Shown here piece after piece: positions 18,854-29,266 of a stretch of 64,000 bases of DNA. Below the pieces are notes generated by a model, which made no database searches, had not been told where the DNA came from, and saw only the letters and a program-made list of their open reading frames with translations. The translations under genes were made by a program, and so were the position numbers. Every line of letters begins with the position of its first letter. The first letter of the stretch is position 1. This DNA is from Salinispora arenicola (GTDB lineage: Bacteria; Actinomycetota; Actinomycetes; Mycobacteriales; Micromonosporaceae), in NCBI RefSeq assembly GCF_006716065.1, contig NZ_VFOL01000001.1, positions 558,001-622,000 on the forward strand. The letters are read 5' to 3'.

Positions 18854-20685
18854 GTGTGTCCGACCCGACCGGCCGCCCCGATGGCCCCCGGGCCGACCGC
18901 ACCGACGGCGATGCCGCGCCGGCGGCACCCGGCCCTACCGGCGCACCCGAGTGGGTGGTACTGCGGCTGGCCCGCCCGTACCTGAACCGGCTACTCGGAG
19001 CGGGTCTGCTCGCCGCCGCCACCGAGTTCGCCGCGCTGGCCCTGATGTCCACCGCGACGTGGCTGCTGATGAGCGCCGCCGGCCGCCCACCACTGGACCG
19101 GTTGACGGTGGCGATCGTCGCCGTCCGTGCGCTCGCCATCGGGCGGGGCGTGCTCCGCTACACCGAACGACTGGCCGGCCACGACGCGGTACTGCGGCTG
19201 GTCACCGACGTCCGTACCCGCGTCTTCGCGGCCCTGGCCGCCCGACGGGACAACTCCGGGCAGCGCTCCGGCGACGCACTGAGCAGGTTGGTGTCCGACG
19301 TGGAGGCCGTTCAGGACCTGCTGCTACGAGTCCTCGTCCCGGCCACCGCGGCAGGGCTGGTCAGCGTGGTGGCCGTCGCCACGGCAACGTTCGTCTCGCC
19401 GGCCGCCGCCGGAACGCTCGCGGTCGGGCTGCTGCTCGCGGGTGTCGCGCTGCCGATACTCGCCACCGCGTTGACCCGACACGCCGCAGCCGAACTGGCG
19501 CCGCTACGGGGTGCCCTGGCCACCGATGCCGTCGATCTGACCCAGGGCGCCGCCGAGCTCGCCGCCTTTGGTGCCACCAGCCAGGCCCGGGGGGTGGCGT
19601 CCGATCGGATCCAACGGCTGGCCCGAATCGAGCGGCGGCTGGCCGCGACCGGGTTCGCAGTGGACGCGCTCGGCGTGCTGGTGGCGGGACTGACCGCCGC
19701 GGCGGTGGTGCTGGTGGCCCTGGCCGACGGCGTGGACGGTGTGCTGGTCGGCGTGCTCGCCGTCGGCACGCTGGTCGCCGTCGAGGTCGCACTCGCCCTC
19801 GTCGGCGCCGCCCGGCAGTGGACCGGCCTCCGCGCCGGCCTCACCCGGGTCGCGGTACTGCTGCGGGAGGCCCCGGCAACGACCGCCGCCGTGCCACCGA
19901 CCGGGCCCTCCCCCACCGCCGTGGGGATCCGGTTCAGCGATGTCACCGTCCGCTACCGCGCCGAGGGGCCAGCCGCCCTCGACCGGTTCCACCTGGACCT
20001 ACCGCCCGGCCGGCGGATCGCCGTTGTCGGCCCGAGCGGCGCCGGCAAGAGCACCCTCGCCGCCGTCCTCACCGGTAGCGTACGGCCGACCGGAGGGCAG
20101 ATCCTCCTGGATGGCCGGGACCTCTCCACCTACCCGGCGGAAGTTCTTCCCCGGATCGTCGGGGGCCTGCTCGCCGAGGCGTACGTGTTCCATGCCACCG
20201 TCCGTGAGAACCTGCTGCTCGGACGGCCCGGCGCGGGAGAGGGCGACCTGGCCGCGGCGACCGCCACCGCGGGCCTGGCGGACTGGCTCCGTGCGCAGCC
20301 CGAGGGCTGGGACACCGTGGTGGGCGAGCAGGGCGGGCAGCTTTCCGGCGGCCAACGGCAGCGACTCGCGCTGGCCCGGGCCCTGCTCGCCGAGCCGGCG
20401 GTGCTCGTGCTCGACGAGCCGACCGAGGGGCTCGACCCGGTAGCGGCGGACGACGTGCTGGCGTCCGTGTTGGCCGCCACCCCGGCCCAGCGCTCGGTGC
20501 TGCTGATCAGCCACCGGCTGCGCGGCCTCGACTCGGTGGACGAGATCGTGGTTCTCGAGTCCGGCCGGGTGGTCCAACGCGGTCGACACGCCGATCTGGT
20601 GTCAGCCCCCGGCTGGTACCGGGACCAGTGGCAGCTCCAGGAGGCTGCCGAGCGCGGCTACCTCGCACTCGGCCCGGTGCCCTGA
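18850..20685 (+). CDS. cydC: Thiol reductant ABC exporter subunit CydC
   Basis: A 611-residue partner of CydD. A Pro/Ala/Asp-rich leader of about 30 residues precedes six transmembrane helices with the family motif VRALAIGRGVLRYTERLAGHD. The C-terminal ATPase has GPSGAGKST, LSGGQRQRLALARALL, VLVLDEPTEGLD and ISHRLRGL. The start overlaps the cydD stop. An inverted repeat that may act as a terminator follows directly (20682-20729). Confidence 0.9.
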   Translation: MSVSDPTGRPDGPRADRTDGDAAPAAPGPTGAPEWVVLRLARPYLNRLLGAGLLAAATEFAALALMSTATWLLMSAAGRPPLDRLTVAIVAVRALAIGRGVLRYTERLAGHDAVLRLVTDVRTRVFAALAARRDNSGQRSGDALSRLVSDVEAVQDLLLRVLVPATAAGLVSVVAVATATFVSPAAAGTLAVGLLLAGVALPILATALTRHAAAELAPLRGALATDAVDLTQGAAELAAFGATSQARGVASDRIQRLARIERRLAATGFAVDALGVLVAGLTAAAVVLVALADGVDGVLVGVLAVGTLVAVEVALALVGAARQWTGLRAGLTRVAVLLREAPATTAAVPPTGPSPTAVGIRFSDVTVRYRAEGPAALDRFHLDLPPGRRIAVVGPSGAGKSTLAAVLTGSVRPTGGQILLDGRDLSTYPAEVLPRIVGGLLAEAYVFHATVRENLLLGRPGAGEGDLAAATATAGLADWLRAQPEGWDTVVGEQGGQLSGGQRQRLALARALLAEPAVLVLDEPTEGLDPVAADDVLASVLAATPAQRSVLLISHRLRGLDSVDEIVVLESGRVVQRGRHADLVSAPGWYRDQWQLQEAAERGYLALGPVP

Positions 20686-20729
20686 CCGGCCGAGGCCGGC
20701 GGTCCGAGGTCGGCCCGCTCGCCGGTCAG
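20682..20729 (+). terminator. Inverted repeat at the end of cydC
   Basis: CTGACCGGC (20682-20690) and GCCGGTCAG (20721-20729) form a 9-bp perfect stem around a GC-rich interior that can also pair. It starts on the cydC stop codon. No U-tract. Confidence 0.45.
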
Positions 20730-20889
20730 CGCCCATCGGCCGTTGTCGGGCCCGCTGGCACGTCCGCCTTTCCCGGCCGCCACCGGGGTGCCGACACCAC
20801 AACCCGACGGCGCACACTAGGGTATGTGCGCGTAGTCACCTGCCGGGTGGGCCTGGCGGGTGGGCAGCCCGAAGCACACGGAGGTCAGT

Positions 20890-21780
20890 GTGGCCCGCCA
20901 GTCGCCTCAACGACCCGATTCCGACGAGCCCGAACTCGACGACCCGGCCGCCTCCAGCACCGCGTCGACCGAAGCCACCCGTGCGCTCTGGGCGGAACTA
21001 CGAATCGACCCGGTGGAGATCGCTCTGCCCGCCGGCACCGGCTACACGTTACGGGCGTACCGTCCGGCGCGGGAGCTGACTCCGACCGACGTCGAGGAGC
21101 GCGACCAGGACGACCCCTTCCTCGCCCGCCGCCAGGTGGTGACCGAAGAGGACGACGATGAGGTCGTCATCCTCGACGAGGAGGTCGCCCAGGAGTTCGC
21201 GGAAAGCGACGAGGAGGAGGCCCGCAACGCCCGTCGCGACTCCGGAAGCGACTCGACGGAGGAGTCGCCGGAGTCCGACGAGGACGCAGGCGATGAGGAG
21301 GTGCCGGTCTTCCTCAGTCACAAGGGCCGGTTGCTACTCTTCAAGACGGCCGAGTCCCTGGTCAGTTTCGTGCGGTCCGGCGCCCCCACCGATCTGTCCC
21401 AGCTGGACAGCTGGAGTGAGCTCTCCGAGCGGGTGGAGCCGGATGACGTCGTGCCGCTCGACGAGGACACCTACGAGCTCGATCTGGTCGTGGAGAACCT
21501 GCGTGGTGGGCACGACGCGTGGGATCCGACGCTGCTCATCGAGGCGGGCGAGATCGCCCGTGACCTCTCGTACGCGCTGCGGGTGCCCGCCGTGCTGGAC
21601 ATGCTCTCCACCGGCTCGAGCCTCGACGACCTGGACGAGGCACTACGGGCGGCCGCCAACGGGGGAATCAGTGGTTTCCTCGGCCGACGTCGGCTCAGGA
21701 AGGTCGGGGCACAAACCGCAAGCCTGGGCTGGCGCACCATTGTCGGCAAGATCTCTGCCGTCGTGGACTGGCGCGACTGA
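20890..21780 (+). CDS. Conserved acidic actinobacterial protein, function unknown
   Basis: A 296-residue soluble protein. The N-terminal region includes TRALWAELRIDPVEIALP. The middle (about 85-140) is a very acidic, probably disordered tract rich in Glu/Asp/Ser. The C-terminal domain (about 140-290) is compact, with VPVFLSHKGRLLLFKTAE, LDLVVENLRGG and a basic RRRLRKVG near the end. The GTG at 20890 has GGAGG five bases upstream, so it is preferred over 20860. Homologues are sometimes labelled primosomal or DNA primase, but I see no primase motif. It is 63 bases ahead of the IS110-like gene, same strand. Confidence 0.75.
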   Translation: MARQSPQRPDSDEPELDDPAASSTASTEATRALWAELRIDPVEIALPAGTGYTLRAYRPARELTPTDVEERDQDDPFLARRQVVTEEDDDEVVILDEEVAQEFAESDEEEARNARRDSGSDSTEESPESDEDAGDEEVPVFLSHKGRLLLFKTAESLVSFVRSGAPTDLSQLDSWSELSERVEPDDVVPLDEDTYELDLVVENLRGGHDAWDPTLLIEAGEIARDLSYALRVPAVLDMLSTGSSLDDLDEALRAAANGGISGFLGRRRLRKVGAQTASLGWRTIVGKISAVVDWRD

Positions 21781-21843
21781 CCCGTTCCAGGGAGCATCAT
21801 TCTCTGGCAGAGAAGACCTGTGTCCCGGGAGGAGGACGACGCC

Positions 21844-24114
21844 GTGGCGCTCGTGCGCGTGTACTGCGGTCTGGCCTCGGCGGATCCGGCCGACCGACCG
21901 GCTTCGGCTGGTTCGGCGCTGACGTCCGCTGTAGTCGACGATGCAGGTCGCCTGCTACATATCAGCGAGATCAGCGATGACCCTGCCGGCTATGCCCAGT
22001 TGGTCACGCTGCTCGTGGACCGCTCGGGCGGACCGAGTGGCGCGGCGATCGCCGCGGACAGCGACGACCACACGGTCACCTCCCTACTCAGTGCCGCCGG
22101 TCGGCCGCTCGCGATCGCCGACGACGACTCGGTGGACGACTTCGCCGAACGATTCGCCGACGACGACTCCCCTGAGGAGGTGCAGGCGCCACCGGTCGAG
22201 CGGCGCGCCGTCGGCCTGGCCCGCGCCTTGCAGGCCGGTGCGCTCTCCGCTGTCACACTCCCGGCCCCTCGAGACCTCGCCGGCTACAAACAGGTACTCG
22301 CCGCACACGCCGCGCTCGCCAACGGCCGGCATTCGGCTGCGGTCGCGCTACGCGAAGTGTTGCGCGAGCTGTTCCCGGCAGCCCTGCAGGCATACCCCGA
22401 TCCGGCCGCTCCGGTCGCGCTGGCGGTGCTGGACGCCCTTCCCGAACCCGGGATGCTGGCCGGCCCTGGGCGCGACCAGTCGGCCACTCGGGTCAGCGCG
22501 GACCTCACCGCCGAAGGCGTCGCCGCGTCCGAGGTGATCGAGGCCGCTATCACCGCCCTCCGAGTCGCCATCTCCGAGACCCCACGGCGAGCCTCGGTCA
22601 ACCCCGCCCTGACGGCAGCGGTGTCCACAACGGTCCGGCAGGCTGTCGCCTCGGTCCGGGCCTGCGATGTCGGGTGCGCGGCGCTGGTCGGCGCGCTCGA
22701 CGACCGAGCGGGCTCCCCCGCGCCCGGCCGCCGTGCCGCCACCCGACACGGCGCGCCGCTGGACAAGCCGCCGTCCACCGACGCCGCCCGAACCAGCGGA
22801 CGGCCAGGCGTGCCCCCTCGGCCGGCGACGACCGGTGCTCGCCGTCCCCAGCCCGAGCCGGTGTCGGGCCAGACCCCGCCGCCGTCCCCGCGCCCCCTCG
22901 GCCCGCCACCGGTCGCGCCGGCGCCCGTGGCACCCCCACCGGTGGCGCCGCAGCCGATCGCACCCGCAGCCGTGGCCGGGGCACCGGTCCCTGCGGCACC
23001 CGGTCAGCCGGAGCCGATGCCGAGCCGTGTCGACGCTCCGACGAACCGCCCGATCTCACCGCCACCGCCCCCACCTCCTGGCATCACGCCGATCCCGCCG
23101 TCGCAGCGAGGTTCGATCCCACCGGCCGAGGCCGGAGAGCCGTTCCGGGCCACCTTGACCACTGCGGCGATCCAGGAGGCCCGTGCCGAGCGACAGCGCA
23201 CCGCCACTCCCCCGCGACCCCACACGGCGTCGGAACCGCCGACGCCAAGCGGTGGCTTCAGCGTGACCGACCTCAGCGTGCCGGTGCCCACCCCGCGACC
23301 GGCTCAGGAGCCCGCCCCCCCGGGCTCCCGGGCGAACTGGCCGCTGGTCAACAACGCGGATCCGGCTGACAGTTCGGCGCGCGTTCCCGGGGCAGACACA
23401 TACGGCGGGCAGGGGGTGGACGCCCCGACCGATCCGAGTGCGGAGCGTCGGGTGCCGCCGCCGTGGCTCGCCGACGACATGCCGCAGGAGCCACCGGTAC
23501 TGCGCCTGGTCGAGCCGCCCCCGCTGGCCGATCGCGCGCTACGCGACGGGGCTGATCCACGGCTCGAAATGCCACCGCTACGCCTCGTCGACGAGGGTAA
23601 GCCCAACGATCACCCAGCCGCCAAACGCCCTGCCGGGCAGCAGATGCCGCCGATGGAGCACCGGCCCCCGCCGGTCACCGACGACGGGGATGGCGACCTG
23701 CTCATCTTTGCCCAGGCGAAGTCGGCCTGGTTTGTCGGTCAGAGCGAGGACGACGAGGTGGACTGGTCGTCGCTGAACGACACCGGTTGGCAGGCGGCCG
23801 AGCAGGCCGCGAAGCCGGCCACCGGCTCCGAGACCCCGTCGGGTCTACCCAAGCGGGTACCCCAGGCCAATCTGGTCCCCGGCTCACCGAAGCAGGACGA
23901 CCGTCCCCTGCGGATCGTTCGGGATCCGGCCAGCCTCGCGGAGAACACAACTGGCTACTTCCGTGGCTGGCGTCGGGGTCAGGAGATCGGAGGCTTCGCG
24001 GTTGGTGGCCGCCCGGGTCGCGAGGCCGCTGGCGGCTGGGACTTCACCCGCGACACTGGCGAACGCGACGAGGACCGGAAGTACGAGTACCGCTCAGCCG
24101 GTTACCGGTCCTGA
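21844..24114 (+). CDS. IS110-transposase-like N-terminus fused to proline-rich region and conservon-kinase-type tail
   Basis: A 756-residue protein. Residues 1-205 follow the layout of an IS110 RuvC-like domain: a VYCGLASADP strand, VVDDAGRLLHISEISDDPAGYAQL, AIAAD, LLSAAGRPLAI, VGLARALQAGAL and the linker helix AALREVLRELFPAAL-like near 165-181. The acidic catalytic positions are largely replaced. Residues about 285-600 are Pro/Ala-rich and disordered. The tail holds SAWF (627-630), GLPKR (667-671) with LVPG, and YFRGWRRG, matching the tail of the sensor kinase at 25820. AGGAGG 8 bases before GTG 21844 favours this start over 21820. Probably a regulatory or structural protein, not an active transposase. 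Confidence 0.7.
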   Translation: MALVRVYCGLASADPADRPASAGSALTSAVVDDAGRLLHISEISDDPAGYAQLVTLLVDRSGGPSGAAIAADSDDHTVTSLLSAAGRPLAIADDDSVDDFAERFADDDSPEEVQAPPVERRAVGLARALQAGALSAVTLPAPRDLAGYKQVLAAHAALANGRHSAAVALREVLRELFPAALQAYPDPAAPVALAVLDALPEPGMLAGPGRDQSATRVSADLTAEGVAASEVIEAAITALRVAISETPRRASVNPALTAAVSTTVRQAVASVRACDVGCAALVGALDDRAGSPAPGRRAATRHGAPLDKPPSTDAARTSGRPGVPPRPATTGARRPQPEPVSGQTPPPSPRPLGPPPVAPAPVAPPPVAPQPIAPAAVAGAPVPAAPGQPEPMPSRVDAPTNRPISPPPPPPPGITPIPPSQRGSIPPAEAGEPFRATLTTAAIQEARAERQRTATPPRPHTASEPPTPSGGFSVTDLSVPVPTPRPAQEPAPPGSRANWPLVNNADPADSSARVPGADTYGGQGVDAPTDPSAERRVPPPWLADDMPQEPPVLRLVEPPPLADRALRDGADPRLEMPPLRLVDEGKPNDHPAAKRPAGQQMPPMEHRPPPVTDDGDGDLLIFAQAKSAWFVGQSEDDEVDWSSLNDTGWQAAEQAAKPATGSETPSGLPKRVPQANLVPGSPKQDDRPLRIVRDPASLAENTTGYFRGWRRGQEIGGFAVGGRPGREAAGGWDFTRDTGERDEDRKYEYRSAGYRS

Positions 24115-24118
24115 GGGC

Positions 24119-24154
24119 CGCTGGTGGCGCTCCGGGTCCGGAACGCCACCAGCG
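24119..24154 (+). terminator. Hairpin after the IS110-like gene
   Basis: CGCTGGTGGCG (24119-24129) and CGCCACCAGCG (24144-24154) form an 11-bp perfect stem, 4 bases after the stop of the plus-strand gene. Confidence 0.65.
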
Positions 24155-24297
24155 CGACATCATCGCACAACCCGGGTCAACTGCCGGGGACTGTGCGGTG
24201 ATGTCGGTCTGGCATGCCGTGGCGGGTGGTCAGTACGGCAGCCCCGCGGTCCACTCCGCCGCCCTCGTCGGATCGGGACAGCGCCCCGGGCGCCCGA

Positions 24298-24347
24298 GTG
24301 GCGGGGTGTCCGGCGACGGCCTCGACCGTTGCCGGACACCCCGCCAC
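24298..24347 (-). terminator. Very long hairpin after the conservon GTPase gene
   Basis: The arm at 24298-24319 pairs with 24326-24347 over 22 bp, the outer 17 being perfect and one inner pair a G-U. A six-base loop remains. It lies 9 bases beyond the GTPase stop and insulates the convergent transcription units. Confidence 0.75.
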
Positions 24348-24356
24348 AGTCGTCGC

Positions 24357-24968
24357 TCAGGCCCGCGCGACAGTCCGCGACCGACGCATGGTGAGCACGT
24401 ACTCGACCAGCGAAATAAGCACGTGCTTGGTGGATTCCCGGTTACGGGCGTCGCACGCCACCACCGGCACGTCGCTGGAGATCGCCAACGCGTCCCGGAC
24501 GTCCTGCGGGTTGTGATACTGCATGCCATCGAAGCAGTTGATGGCCACCAGGTAGGGCAGCCGCCGGTGCTCGAAAAAGTCGATCGCCGCGAAGCAGTCG
24601 GCGAGCCGACGAGTGTCGACCAGGACAACCGCACCGATGGCGCCACGGACAAGTTCGTCCCACATGAACCAGAACCGAGTCTGACCGGGCGTACCGAACA
24701 GGTACAGAATCAGGTCTCGGTCGATTGTGATCCGGCCAAAGTCCATGGCCACCGTGGTCGTCGACTTTCCCGGCACCTGCCGATTGTCGTTGACACCCAC
24801 GCTTGCGGAGGTCATGATCGCCTCCGTCGTCAGCGGCGTGATCTCCGAGACCGAGCCGACCAGCGTCGTCTTACCAACGCCGAATCCACCGGCGATGACG
24901 ATCTTCGCCGATGTCACGCGGCCGCTCGGAGTCGGCGGACGCGCCATGTCAGAGCCTGCGAAGTCCAC
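24357..24968 (-). CDS. Conservon GTP-binding protein (CvnD-like, MglA/Arf-type small GTPase)
   Basis: A 203-residue small GTPase. It has the P-loop GGFGVGKTT (27-35), a switch I region with TSASVGV, G3 segment LFGTPGQTRFWFMWD, and AINCFDG in place of a canonical NKxD motif. This pattern defines the ATP/GTP-binding proteins encoded at the end of Streptomyces conservons. The GTG at 24968 gives the usual VDFA opening and overlaps the DUF742 gene by 20 bases; ATG 24947 is possible. It is expected to act with the roadblock and DUF742 proteins at a membrane sensor kinase. Confidence 0.92.
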   Translation of the reverse strand: MDFAGSDMARPPTPSGRVTSAKIVIAGGFGVGKTTLVGSVSEITPLTTEAIMTSASVGVNDNRQVPGKSTTTVAMDFGRITIDRDLILYLFGTPGQTRFWFMWDELVRGAIGAVVLVDTRRLADCFAAIDFFEHRRLPYLVAINCFDGMQYHNPQDVRDALAISSDVPVVACDARNRESTKHVLISLVEYVLTMRRSRTVARA

Positions 24969-25326
24969 TCAGCACCCTCTCCAGCAGTTCAGTGCCCACC
25001 GCGTCGTCCGAGTCGTCCAGAATAGTCGGCTCGTGGACCGCGACCAGGCCGTCGGTCGCCATGTCGGCGATGAGCACCCGGGCCACCCCGAGCGGAAGCT
25101 GCATCCGTGCCGCGATCTCGGCTAACGACTGCACGCGTCCGTCACAGAGCGCGGCGATGTACTGGTGCTCACGGCCGTGTCCGCCGTTGCCGTTGGCAAC
25201 CACCCGCCCGCGCACCGTCGTCTCGATAAGCGCTTCCATCGCGATGTCGAGTCGGGGACGGGTGCGACCACGGGTCACGGCATACGGACGGACCAACGCG
25301 CCGGTCGGTTCGTCACGATCAGTCAT
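24949..25326 (-). CDS. DUF742 protein (conservon CvnC-like)
   Basis: A 125-residue protein with the DUF742 core: ALVRPYAVTRGRTRP, DIAMEALIET and LAEIAARMQLPLGVARVLIADM, which reads as a winged helix-turn-helix. ATG 25326 is preferred because GGAGGAGG lies 11 bases upstream; GTG 25347 would put that element inside the gene. It is the third gene of the conservon operon, between roadblock and GTPase. The molecular role is unproven; in Streptomyces these proteins are part of the signalling complex. Confidence 0.9.
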   Translation of the reverse strand: MTDRDEPTGALVRPYAVTRGRTRPRLDIAMEALIETTVRGRVVANGNGGHGREHQYIAALCDGRVQSLAEIAARMQLPLGVARVLIADMATDGLVAVHEPTILDDSDDAVGTELLERVLSGLRRL

Positions 25327-25418
25327 GTCGCCGCTCACCTCCTCCACACCCGAGACCAGCTAACACCGGTCGGACCCTTGTTGTTGTCGCCCCGCCGACC
25401 ACACGAGTCGGCGAAACG

Positions 25419-25823
25419 TCAGCCCGGCATGCCCGCGGCCGCGCGCGGCTGCGGGGTCAACGCGTCACCCACCCGGTCAACCAGGAGCGCCATCTCGTAA
25501 CCGACCTGCCCCACGTCGGAGCTACGGGCGGCAAGCACCGCGAACGACGAACCATCCGAGATAGACATCAAAAACAGAAAGCCGTTGTCCATCTCGACAA
25601 CCGTCTGAAGCACGGCGCCGCCCTCGAAACAGCGGGCCGCCCCTTGCGTGAGGCTGACCAGACCGGACGCGATGGCGGCCAACTGGTCAGCCCGATCGCG
25701 CGGGAGATCCCGCGAGGCCGCGAGGAGCAGGCCGTCCGCCGACACGGCGACCGCGTGTGCGACTCCCGGCACCCGGTCGGCGAAATTGGCGAGCAGCCAA
25801 CCGAGATCCTGCGTACTAGTCAT
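25419..25823 (-). CDS. Roadblock/LC7 domain protein (conservon CvnB-like)
   Basis: A 134-residue roadblock-fold protein. Typical segments are [46 protein letters not shown] and [16 protein letters not shown]. Such proteins act as scaffolds or GTPase-activating partners of MglA-type GTPases. It overlaps the kinase gene by 4 bases (25820-25823). GGAG lies 12 bases upstream of the ATG. Confidence 0.93.
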
Positions 25824-28800
25824 CCTTCTTGCTCCTTCTGCCCGCTCCCGGCCACCGGGCCTGAGCCAGACTGCGAGGACTGCCATCCCGGAGTCTCCTC
25901 CGGGTTGGTCGGGTTGCTGTCCGTGGGGTTCCTTCGTCCGCGCTGAACCCCACGGTGGTAGGCGGAGAGTAGCCCTCGGACTGACTCGGGCGTACGCCGC
26001 TGGACCGCTGCGGACGGCTTCTCCACGGCGCCCGGTACCAGCTGCGCCATCGGGGTACGTTTGGGCAGCCCCGTCGAGGTGGTCGCCGCCACCTGCACGT
26101 CGCTTGCTGCCGAGGCGGCCCGCCAACCATCGTCGGCGGCGGTTCGCCAGCCTTCACCAGCTCGCCCCCGCCGCTGGACGAATCCGCCCACGGTGGGGGT
26201 AACGCTCCCGTTGGCCGTCAAGCCGTGCTGAGGCGGTGTGCCGCCGGTGGCCGGGGTCTCTGCCATTGGTGTGTTACCTGTCGTTGCGGGTGGTATCTGC
26301 TGCTGGGTGTCCGCGTCGACCCTGGCGAACTGCTGGGTCGCGGCGCCACCCGGCCCAGCGACACCGCCGGGCTGGGTAGCTTCGGCCCGACTGGCAGTCT
26401 CCTCCGGACCAGGTCGGCGAGTGCGGAACCAGGCCGACTCCAACTCCCGGAAGATCGGCAGCTCCATTGTCTCGTCCGCATGCGGCTGCTGGTGCTGGGC
26501 AGGTGGCGTGGCCGGAGCCGACGTCGGCGGGTTGCCCGACATCGGAACGGCTGGGCCGCCCTGCACCGGGGCCGCCGGAGGCCCGACAGGCGGCGGCCCC
26601 GCCGGACGCGCCACCCGAGGCAACTCGGTGGTCAGGTCCGGGGCCGCAGCGACCCATTCCGACTGCGACGGGGCGGCGGTGTCCCCCGCCCCAGCGGGTA
26701 CGGGCGGCCAGGCCGGCGGGGCCGTGGGGGCCGAACGCTGCGGTAGCGGCGCCGCGTACGGCTGGCCGGAAGCCGGTGCCGCGGAGATCGGCGTCCCAGA
26801 CGTCGGGGCAGCCGACACCGGAGGCGCGGAGGTCGGTACGCCCGAGGTCGGCGGGTTGGAGACAGACCACCCGGAGTATGGGGTCGCCGGCGGGGCGTAC
26901 GGCTGGGCCTCCGGGCTGCTCGACAGTTGCCGCGGAATCCCGGACTGCTGCCCGGCGTCCGCCTCGCCCGGGGGCCGCCGTTGCGGTAGCGGGCCGCTCG
27001 GCTGCGCGCCTGAGTCGTACAGGGCCCGCGGCTCACTGCCGGCCAGGTCCGACCAGGCGGGCATCGTCTGCGGTGTCCCCATCGGTGCGCCCGCACCATT
27101 GCGGTGGGCCGGGTCGAACGGCCGACCACCGAGCGTCACCTGGTTACCGGACTCACCTGGGTACGGGCCGGCAGCTGTCCCGGACGGAGTGCTCCCACGC
27201 GTGGACACGGCCTCGAAACCCGGCGCCGAGGTCGGCACCGGCGGCAGGCCGGGGGGCAGCTGAGGCCGGCTGGCGAGCGCCCGGGGCACCAACAGGGTGA
27301 CCGGCAGGGTCACGTCCGCGACGGTCCCCCGGTCGGCGCCTGGGCGCAGTTCCACCTTCACACCATGCCGGGACGCCAGCCGGGCGACCACGACCAGACC
27401 CATCATCCGGGACACCGCCACGTCCACCTGCGGCGGCATGGCGAGCTTCTCGTTCAGTTCCCGTAGCTGTTCCGGACTGATGCCGATGCCGCGGTCCTCC
27501 ACGTAGAGGGAGGCACGTTCGCCGACGCGACGGGCCTCGACGACGACCTGCGACTCGGGCGGCGAGAACGCCGTCGCGTTGTCGAACAGCTCGGCGACGA
27601 GGTGGACCAGGTCGTTGACGGCGTGGGCTGCGACCTCGATGTCCCGGTCGATCACGCCGAACTCGATCCGCGTGTAGTGCTCGACCTCGGACTGGGCGGC
27701 CCGGAGCACGTCGATCAGGGCGGCCGGCTCCCGCTGTACGCGGGTGGAGTCAGCCGCAGCGAGAACCAACAGGTTTTCGTCGTTGCGACGCATCCGGGTG
27801 GCGAGATGGTCGAGCTGGAACAGCTCGGCCAGCCGGTCCGGGTCTTCCTCGCCCCGCTCGAGCCGGTCGAGGTGGCCGATCAGCCGGTCGACCAGGATCT
27901 GGGACCGACGGGCCAGGTTGACGAACATGGTCGCCACGGAGGCTCTCAGGGCGGCCTGCTCAGCCGCGGTACGCACTGCCTCCAGGTGCACCGCGTTGAA
28001 CGCCTCGGTCACCTGACCGAACTCGTCCCGGCTGCGCACCGGCAGCGGCTCGGCGATCTGGTCAGCCAGCTGTTTGGGGCTGAGCTGTCCGCCGGTGGCC
28101 TGTGACGCACGCAGCCGGGTGACGGCATGCGGCAGTCCGTGCTCCGCGATCGACAGGGCGCCCATCCGGAGGTCGGCCAGCGACCGGGCCATCGAGCGGG
28201 CGACCAGGAACGCGAAGAGAATGGACAGCAGCAGCATGCTGAGCAGCAGCCCGGTCTCCAGGGACACCTGCAGCCGCACGTCCGATCGGAGAGCGTCGGC
28301 GAGGCGGACGGCGTCACCGTCGATCTTTCCTTCCACCTCGCGGACAAGAGCGGCATACCCGACCATCGCGTTGTCCCACTGGTCGGCTGTGAAGCCGATG
28401 CTGTCGAGGGTCCGGGCGTCGGAGAGGCCGCGCAGGTTGCTGTTGTAGGCCACCGCCTCCCGGGCATCGGGACCGGCGACGGTTTGGTCGTACAGCTCCT
28501 GGTCGGCACGGGAGGCGACCGCGGCGAAGGTTTCCAGCCACTGCCGCTGGCCGGTGAAGGTGGAGATGTAGGTGTTACGCAGATCAGGGGTGAGCTGCCC
28601 CCGGATGAGGCCGACGTGCACCACGTCTCGCTGTTGGGACAGGTACTCCTTGTTCCGGGCGAGGGCGGTCGCGGCGCGCATTCGGTCACTCAGCTCGGAA
28701 TCACCGGCCAGCTGGGTAGCCGAATCCCGCACGTTGATCAGATCGGTCAGCAGGGCCTCGTACTGCTGCTGCGCCTGGGTGAGGCTCAGCCGACCATTGA

Positions 28801-29266
28801 GGACCTGACTTCGCGTGCCGGGCAGGTCGGTGAGGGTCTTGTCGATGAAGCGGAGCTGGTTGTCGAGGGTGCTGGGCAGGCCGTCAAGGTCGCCCCGCTG
28901 CGCGGAATACGGCTCCTTGGCCTTGTCGACGCGGGCGGCTACGTCCTCGTACGCCGCGCGGCGTTCCTCCCGCTGCGCCGCCCGTCTCTCACCGAGCAGC
29001 CGGATCGCCGCCGTCCGCTCGTCCTGCAGTTGGCTGACCAGTTCTCCGGAGTAGCCGACCAGGTTGGTGAGGTCGCCGGACCGATTGGCGTTGTTGAGCG
29101 TCTGCAAGTGGTCGACCAGACCACTGGTACCCACGACGACGGTGGCGATGGTCGGCACGATCATGATGAGACCGAGCTTGGACCAGATCGGCATGTCGCG
29201 GAGCCGACCGGCAGGTCGGCGCAGACGCGACAGGATGGAACCTGCCGTCTTTGGTCGTTTGCTCAC
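25820..29266 (-). CDS. Conservon sensor histidine kinase (CvnA-like) with nitrate/nitrite-sensing-type extracellular domain
   Basis: A 1148-residue membrane kinase. A basic N-terminus leads to TM1 (about 28-48). An extracellular all-helical NIT-type domain (about 55-325) is followed by TM2 (about 335-357) and a HAMP-like region. An atypical H-box [15 protein letters not shown] follows, then a HATPase domain with [27 protein letters not shown] and [11 protein letters not shown] Pro/Gln/Ala-rich tail of about 480 residues ends with SAWF (944-947), GLPKR (1066-1070) with LVPG, and [12 protein letters not shown] start. It heads the four-gene conservon operon with overlapping or close junctions. 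The true signal is unknown. Confidence 0.92.

Follow-up and report, generated by a model that had tools for sequence, protein, structure and literature searches.

The question raised by this locus is what a protein that begins like an IS110 transposase does beside a conservon, which here encodes a sensor kinase (CvnA), a roadblock protein (CvnB), a DUF742 protein (CvnC) and a Ras-like small GTPase (CvnD). The gene lies at 21844..24114 on the plus strand of a 64,000-nucleotide stretch of the Salinispora arenicola genome (assembly GCF_006716065.1, contig NZ_VFOL01000001.1, positions 558,001 to 622,000), hereafter the window; we use the name TARGET for both the gene and its product of 756 amino acids (aa). 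An earlier note, made from the sequence alone, described it as a domesticated, catalytically degenerate IS110-like protein. That overall observation is confirmed: the open reading frame (ORF) is real, its bounds are correct and the sequence pieces quoted in the note are all present. TARGET fuses an IS110 RuvC-like domain and a coiled-coil part to a proline-rich linker, for which disorder is predicted, and a tail homologous to that of CvnA; its identity as a dead IS110 half joined to a CvnA-type tail is, in our estimate, nearly certain. As to function, our preferred reading, to which we give a probability of roughly 60%, is that the dead transposase half acts as a kinase-less docking platform for roadblock/Ras-like GTPase signalling.

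A C-terminal tail shared with the CvnA kinase

Homology to the C-terminal tail of CvnA, the kinase encoded by the neighbouring, convergent gene, extends over residues ~616-713 of TARGET. The tail of TARGET comprises four motifs on the plus strand, namely DGDLLIFAQAKSAWF (23689..23733), DWSSLNDTGWQAA (23761..23799), SGLPKRVPQANLVPGS (23839..23886) and RIVRDPASLAENTTGYFRGWRRGQ (23911..23982), among which we name SAWF, GLPxRVPxxNLVPG (GLPKRVPQANLVPG) and YFRGW. In CvnA the homologous motifs 2-4 are encoded on the minus strand at 25934..26152 and motif 1 at 26426..26467. An hhalign comparison of 19 TARGET with 16 CvnA tails over motifs 2-4 gave a probability of 99.4 (E 5e-21), as opposed to 0.5 for the reversed control and 2.7 for the best of 20 column shuffles. 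Likewise, a hidden Markov model (HMM) of 48 TARGET tails, run against 6322 six-frame ORFs from the loci and the window, recovered 29 CvnA ORFs (E 3.6e-22 to 2.5e-14) and nothing among shuffled ORFs; two further non-TARGET rows in this result are truncated TARGETs and stand outside the 29. The spacing in the window agrees closely, with 19 residues from GW to GLP in both proteins and 38 (TARGET) versus 37 (CvnA) from GLP to Y.RG. The tail was recovered in 51 of 55 sequences, 48 of which reach motif 4; L001, which is the same gene as that of the window, and L021, which has a frameshift in the linker, were dropped, and L005, L013, L014 and L016, in which the locus end cuts the tail, were left out of the tail counts.

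A HATPase domain is present in 28 of 32 non-TARGET loci with this tail, two of which are one gene (21 by the N-box motif, three by Pfam and four on a longer sequence; L114, L118, L119 and L129 were left out of this check). Pfam finds no HATPase in TARGET at E <= 1. Tail profile matches occur in 39 of 118 genomes of the class. In the genome of the window, they comprise, at E <= 1e-4, TARGET, the adjoining CvnA and two more kinases, 2395104 and the weakly matching 655185. Roadblock genes number six in this genome and DUF742 genes over the cut-off five, against only three kinases with a TARGET-like tail (one of them weak). Conservons may split into tailed and untailed kinds.

IS110 descent and loss of the active site

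The N-terminal half of TARGET consists of an RNase H/RuvC-like domain (aa 4-141; 21853..22266), delineated by hhalign, residue alignment, an AlphaFold model and VIA-align, and a helical part (22270..22710) with long helices at aa 143-176 and 254-289, which aligns to the post-RuvC region of IS110. The earlier note had seen IS110 likeness in the first 205 residues and proposed a comparison with IS110/RuvC structures. The comparison upholds the likeness and lengthens it: with a query ending at residue 295, hhalign places the similarity over residues 4-289 (probability 99.2), and shuffling the columns 20 times gave at most 0.2. The AlphaFold model of this region is confident, and VIA-align ranks two IS110 recombinases, ISCro4 and IS621, as the closest structures to it; in the predicted structure the two-helix part may resemble the coiled coil of Nop5. 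Pfam, run on the window protein alone, gives a weak IS110 match (E 0.21 at full length, 0.015 for the N-terminus). At E <= 1 its only match in full TARGET is PF01548, with no Tnp domain, in agreement with the C-terminus that the note had found missing; the linker and the CvnA-type tail occupy its place. The long proline-rich region of the note is present as well (aa 291-610; 22714..23673; 27% proline), but it is the linker that leads to the conserved tail, which the note had overlooked. The linker mostly has a predicted local distance difference test (pLDDT) score below 50. The full-length model has a pLDDT of 55.2 and a predicted template modelling score of 0.41, with most of the linker and tail below 50, so only aa 1-290 of it are usable. 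NCBIfam assigns no family to the protein.

The available text of the IS621 study gives the reference residues as D11, E60, D102, D105 and S241 (PMC11208158). At the corresponding places TARGET of the window has A11, D72, V and R, with no D-x-x-D near the last two; GLA thus stands where GID is usual, as had been observed. D11 is lost in all 24 orthologues, being replaced by A, T, V or S. The E60 place has D in 19 of the 24, E in one and other residues in four, so that an acidic residue is usually kept there; the claim that the expected acidic residues are lost accordingly holds for D11 and the later pair and not for E60. D occurs at D102 in four and at D105 in two of the 24, never at both together. 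The pair is indeed gone where the note read RRAVGLA, although its spacing is D-x2-D rather than D-x3-D. In the joint alignment the IS110 rows L057, L058, L060 and L067 start late and hence lack D11, and E60 is off-register in several others.

All 24 orthologues carry a net negative charge over residues 1-290, with a mean of -11.9 and a span from -1 to -19; by comparison, 14 IS110 proteins have a mean charge of +13.7 as a whole and +2.4 over residues 1-190, where single values run from -3 to +8. These values bear on the possibility that TARGET is a nucleic-acid-binding regulator, whose dead RuvC domain and coiled coil would still bind structured RNA or DNA, in the manner of IS110 and Nop proteins, and whose tail would relay the signal to the G-protein system. 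The note had suggested a scaffold or a nucleic-acid-binding component. A scaffold is our best guess too, whereas the negative charge and the missing Tnp domain make nucleic-acid binding very improbable, and the charge led us to set it aside as first choice. An Rfam scan of the window at gathering scores returned a tRNA match only, the coverage of bridge RNAs by Rfam being unchecked.

Distribution and selection

TARGET has matches in 119 of 121 genomes of the family (all but G038 and G113), not every weak match having been inspected for the tail, and a single match at E <= 1 in its own genome. Among the best 120 of 861 matches in the protein database, the closest named proteins are from Salinispora cortesiana (88%) and Micromonospora thermarum (86%). 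The deep relatives come from Glycomyces, Natronoglycomyces, Haloglycomyces and Salininema. Across the class, where eight candidates were scored per genome, the N-terminal profile has hits at E <= 1e-8 in 24 of 296 genomes, of which three belong to the family. The 17 loci examined out of 28 out-of-family matches have no tail, and 11 of these 17 display S.PG.G, which we take to be a motif of intact IS110. A branch with 100/99 support sets the N-terminal sequences apart in their tree, and likewise the tail sequences in theirs, both trees carrying long-branch warnings; the tail tree took in seven class-wide CvnA tails, those caught by pattern. Two loci depart from the usual organization: L056 (G073) is a second, shorter paralogue of 476 aa with a dead RuvC domain and a CvnA-type tail, and has no SatS, roadblock or conservon genes beside it; in L021/L160 of Phytohabitans flavus the linker has a break in the reading frame, and the tail is encoded in a different frame of that strand.

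TARGET is under purifying selection: the ratio of non-synonymous to synonymous substitution rates (dN/dS) between the window and its relatives is 0.13-0.29 for the N-terminus (8 pairs), 0.05-0.28 for the tail (7 pairs, without Phytohabitans) and 0.23-0.61 for the linker (8 pairs). Many entries among the matches listed are named transposase, which would suit an ordinary decayed IS110 copy, a pseudogene that happens to lie beside a conservon. Against this stand dN/dS values well below 1, the presence in nearly all genomes of the family, the conserved neighbours, and searches that gave no phage match and a sole plasmid match (E <= 1e-5) which is a true IS110; we regard such a pseudogene as hardly credible and reject it on the purifying selection and the family-wide distribution. 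A mobile element or prophage gene is rejected on the same phage and plasmid searches together with the lack of bounding repeats, the repeat search showing no pair that bounds TARGET, in line with the absence of terminal inverted repeats noted before. IS110 descent, catalytic loss and domestication are all supported, the last by the single copy, the purifying selection, the near-universal presence in the family and the conserved place.

A roadblock gene coupled to TARGET

TARGET is followed in 17 of 36 loci by a roadblock (CvnB-like) match, which we term RB2, that starts on the same strand at -4 to +15 nt from the TARGET stop. RB2 begins at -4 nt in L039, L040, L042 and L043, and the overlap of cvnA and cvnB in the window is likewise 4 nt. 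The HMM was built from five RB2 proteins and one conservon CvnB, and the two kinds were told apart by strand and place; L039, L040, L044 and L050, labelled CvnBadj by the distance rule, nonetheless fall in the RB2 clade. The RB2 sequences form one clade (100/100) separate from all sampled CvnB. A conservon is also present in 10 of the 17 RB2 loci and not in the other seven. None of the six roadblock genes in the genome of the window is RB2-like; among them the RB2 proteins match best the CvnB of the conservon next to TARGET, at 38-42%. As regards length, the RB2 loci (L037-L053) encode shorter proteins of 492-708 aa, and those without RB2 (the window, L022-L036, L054 and L055) longer ones of 709-1070 aa, with the paralogue L056 standing apart at 476 aa; loss of RB2 may have gone along with a lengthening of the linker.

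Gene neighbourhood

Pfam confirms the adjoining conservon on the minus strand: cvnD (24357..24968), a small GTPase by PF03029 with a weak Ras match; cvnC (24949..25347), with DUF742; cvnB (25419..25823), with the roadblock domain Robl_LC7, the ATG of which overlaps the stop of cvnA by the 4 nt mentioned above; and cvnA (25820..29266), the NIT-HAMP-HATPase sensor kinase with the homologous tail. Of 36 loci with at least 3 kb of downstream sequence, 28 have a convergent cvnD at a distance of 52-3257 nt and eight have none; this set of 36 differs by one from that of the roadblock survey, which has the window in place of L021. The neighbourhood survey of orthologues that the note had called for thus bears out the link to the conservon and adds a roadblock gene coupled to TARGET in relatives, which, like the tail of CvnA type, had escaped the note. 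Each of the 11 genomes tested has DUF742 genes, even where no conservon adjoins TARGET, and conservons therefore probably lie elsewhere in the latter.

On the 5' side, a SatS-like gene (20860..21780, plus strand; NCBIfam SatS, E 2.6e-10, well under the cut-off) ends 63 nt before the start of TARGET, a GTG at 21844 with GGAGGAGG directly 5' of it; an alternative GTG at 21820 would give a protein of 764 aa. Of 56 orthologue loci, our own included, 54 (not L051 and L056) have a SatS-like gene upstream of TARGET in the same orientation, at a distance from its last aligned residue of <=324 nt in 50 loci and 963-1070 nt in four. Between the convergent TARGET and cvnD lie two strong hairpins, one just 3' of the TARGET stop (24119..24154, 17-nt arms) and one before the cvnD stop (24298..24347, 22-nt arms), which are perhaps a two-sided terminator; a promoter/terminator scan of 20600-24500 found none.

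The SatS-like neighbour and the NIT/HATPase kinases that make up the other tail carriers tested would fit a tail that is a general localisation signal (to the membrane, pole or septum) common to CvnA, in a structural protein unrelated to G-protein switching. A link to signalling is favoured instead by the roadblock gene, directly coupled to TARGET in 17 of 36 loci, and by the conservation of the neighbouring conservon; we consider such a localisation signal improbable.

Proposed origin and mechanism

Each of the three parts, the IS110 half, the tail and RB2, looks to be of one origin, and the tail-roadblock order copies that of cvnA-cvnB; a single fusion is the simplest account. It would have taken place once, in the ancestor of the family with Salinispora, Micromonospora and Glycomyces, and would have placed the 5' half of an IS110 gene before the 3' end of a cvnA paralogue, with the cvnB of that paralogue remaining downstream and turning into RB2. 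On the branch of the window RB2 would later have been lost, and repeatedly so if the tree is correct. A different route, which concerns origin and not function, would assemble the IS110 half, the tail and RB2 by independent steps. The sampled CvnA and CvnB do all fall outside the tail and RB2 clades, which leaves no donor pair to be named, but the gene order of cvnA-cvnB and its 4-nt overlap recur as TARGET-RB2 in the four loci with RB2 at -4 nt; we hold separate events to be rather unlikely.

Under the docking reading, the IS110 part would dimerise through its coiled coil by analogy with IS621 and Nop5, for which such dimers are described in the available text of PMC11208158 and, for TasR/Nop5, of PMC12045711; the latter also has the dead RuvC domain of Nop5 recruiting a partner protein. 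The dimer may be a protein platform or an input module replacing NIT-HAMP-HATPase, from which the long linker would present the CvnA-type tail, with its short motifs docking a roadblock protein: RB2 or, in the genome of the window, the CvnB of the neighbouring conservon. The docked roadblock protein would in turn place or tune the Ras-like GTPase CvnD. CvnB is modelled as a GTPase-activating protein in the available portions of PMC13343842, and MfpD is called one in the title of PMC9769811. TARGET could then be a kinase-less counterpart of CvnA or its competitor. More tentatively, TARGET and its roadblock protein might constitute a kinase-less G-protein input unit, in which a transposon-derived dimer in the place of the sensor kinase gates the Ras-like GTPase.

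Several observations tell against this picture. The spacing from SAWF to GW differs, being 21 residues in TARGET and 103 in CvnA, and the literature searched yielded no report of a binding partner for the CvnA tail. Foldseek alone gave no match to the N-terminal model at E <= 0.001, the best (0.018) being an SPT6-containing complex, and the N-terminal profile found no IS110 match and nothing related among PDB sequences (best E 0.5). Six deep rows out of 24 (L044, L045, L047, L049, L051 and L052) have a D-x-x-D shifted by one column from D102/D105; should the alignment have slipped in them, the pair may in fact be kept, and its loss in these rows is less certain than that of D11. In the window TARGET is convergent with the conservon and outside its operon, RB2 is gone from its branch and no roadblock gene lies directly 3' of it; seven of the 36 loci have no conservon roadblock in the downstream DNA examined, only RB2, and the paralogue L056 has neither. 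L053 has RB2 within a branch otherwise mostly without it, implying either repeated loss or an error in the tree; the trees are unrooted and carry the long-branch warnings, and that of the tail has few columns. The single fusion itself is inferred rather than observed, and we rate it an even chance.

A tail kept across a family without the kinase separates tail from catalysis; a kinase-less carrier also makes the binding partner of the tail directly testable. If true, this would mean that an IS110 fold has been put to use in signalling, and many database entries, among the matches listed, that now bear the name 'transposase' would be corrected. No paper on an IS110-derived conservon protein, or on an IS110 fold recruited for signalling, was found in the literature searched, an absence that is weak evidence because most subscription papers lie beyond the reach of the search. 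The main text of PMC13343842, as available, has no mention of transposase or C-terminal, nor has the available part of PMC8510531 of C-terminal or tail.

Comparison with known systems

TARGET has in common with the IS110 recombinases (IS621, ISCro4; PF01548 + Tnp) the RuvC fold, the coiled-coil region and the similarity over the whole N-terminal half. It differs from them in its lost DEDD residues, the lack of the Tnp serine domain and its acidic character, and, whereas IS110 elements are mobile and often multi-copy, in its single copy, conserved place and fused CvnA tail. The combination of a RuvC-like domain with a coiled coil is also that of Nop5/Nop56 and TasR; unlike these, which have the Nop C-terminal domain, TARGET shows no C-terminal RNA-binding part, and the Rfam scan brought up no RNA partner for it. 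As an extra protein beside a conservon and a possible input or modulator, it recalls the accessory proteins CvnE (P450) and CvnF (GAF), described for conservons in 2026 (PMC13343842, from the available text). However, it lies outside the cvn operon, has an unrelated fold and carries the CvnA tail; moreover, the CvnA beside TARGET keeps its NIT sensor, whereas CvnE and CvnF accompany a CvnA without one, as far as the same text goes. With CvnA itself it shares the proline-rich linker, the tail motifs and, in the loci with RB2, a roadblock gene next to it, but it has a dead IS110 half where CvnA has NIT-HAMP-HATPase.
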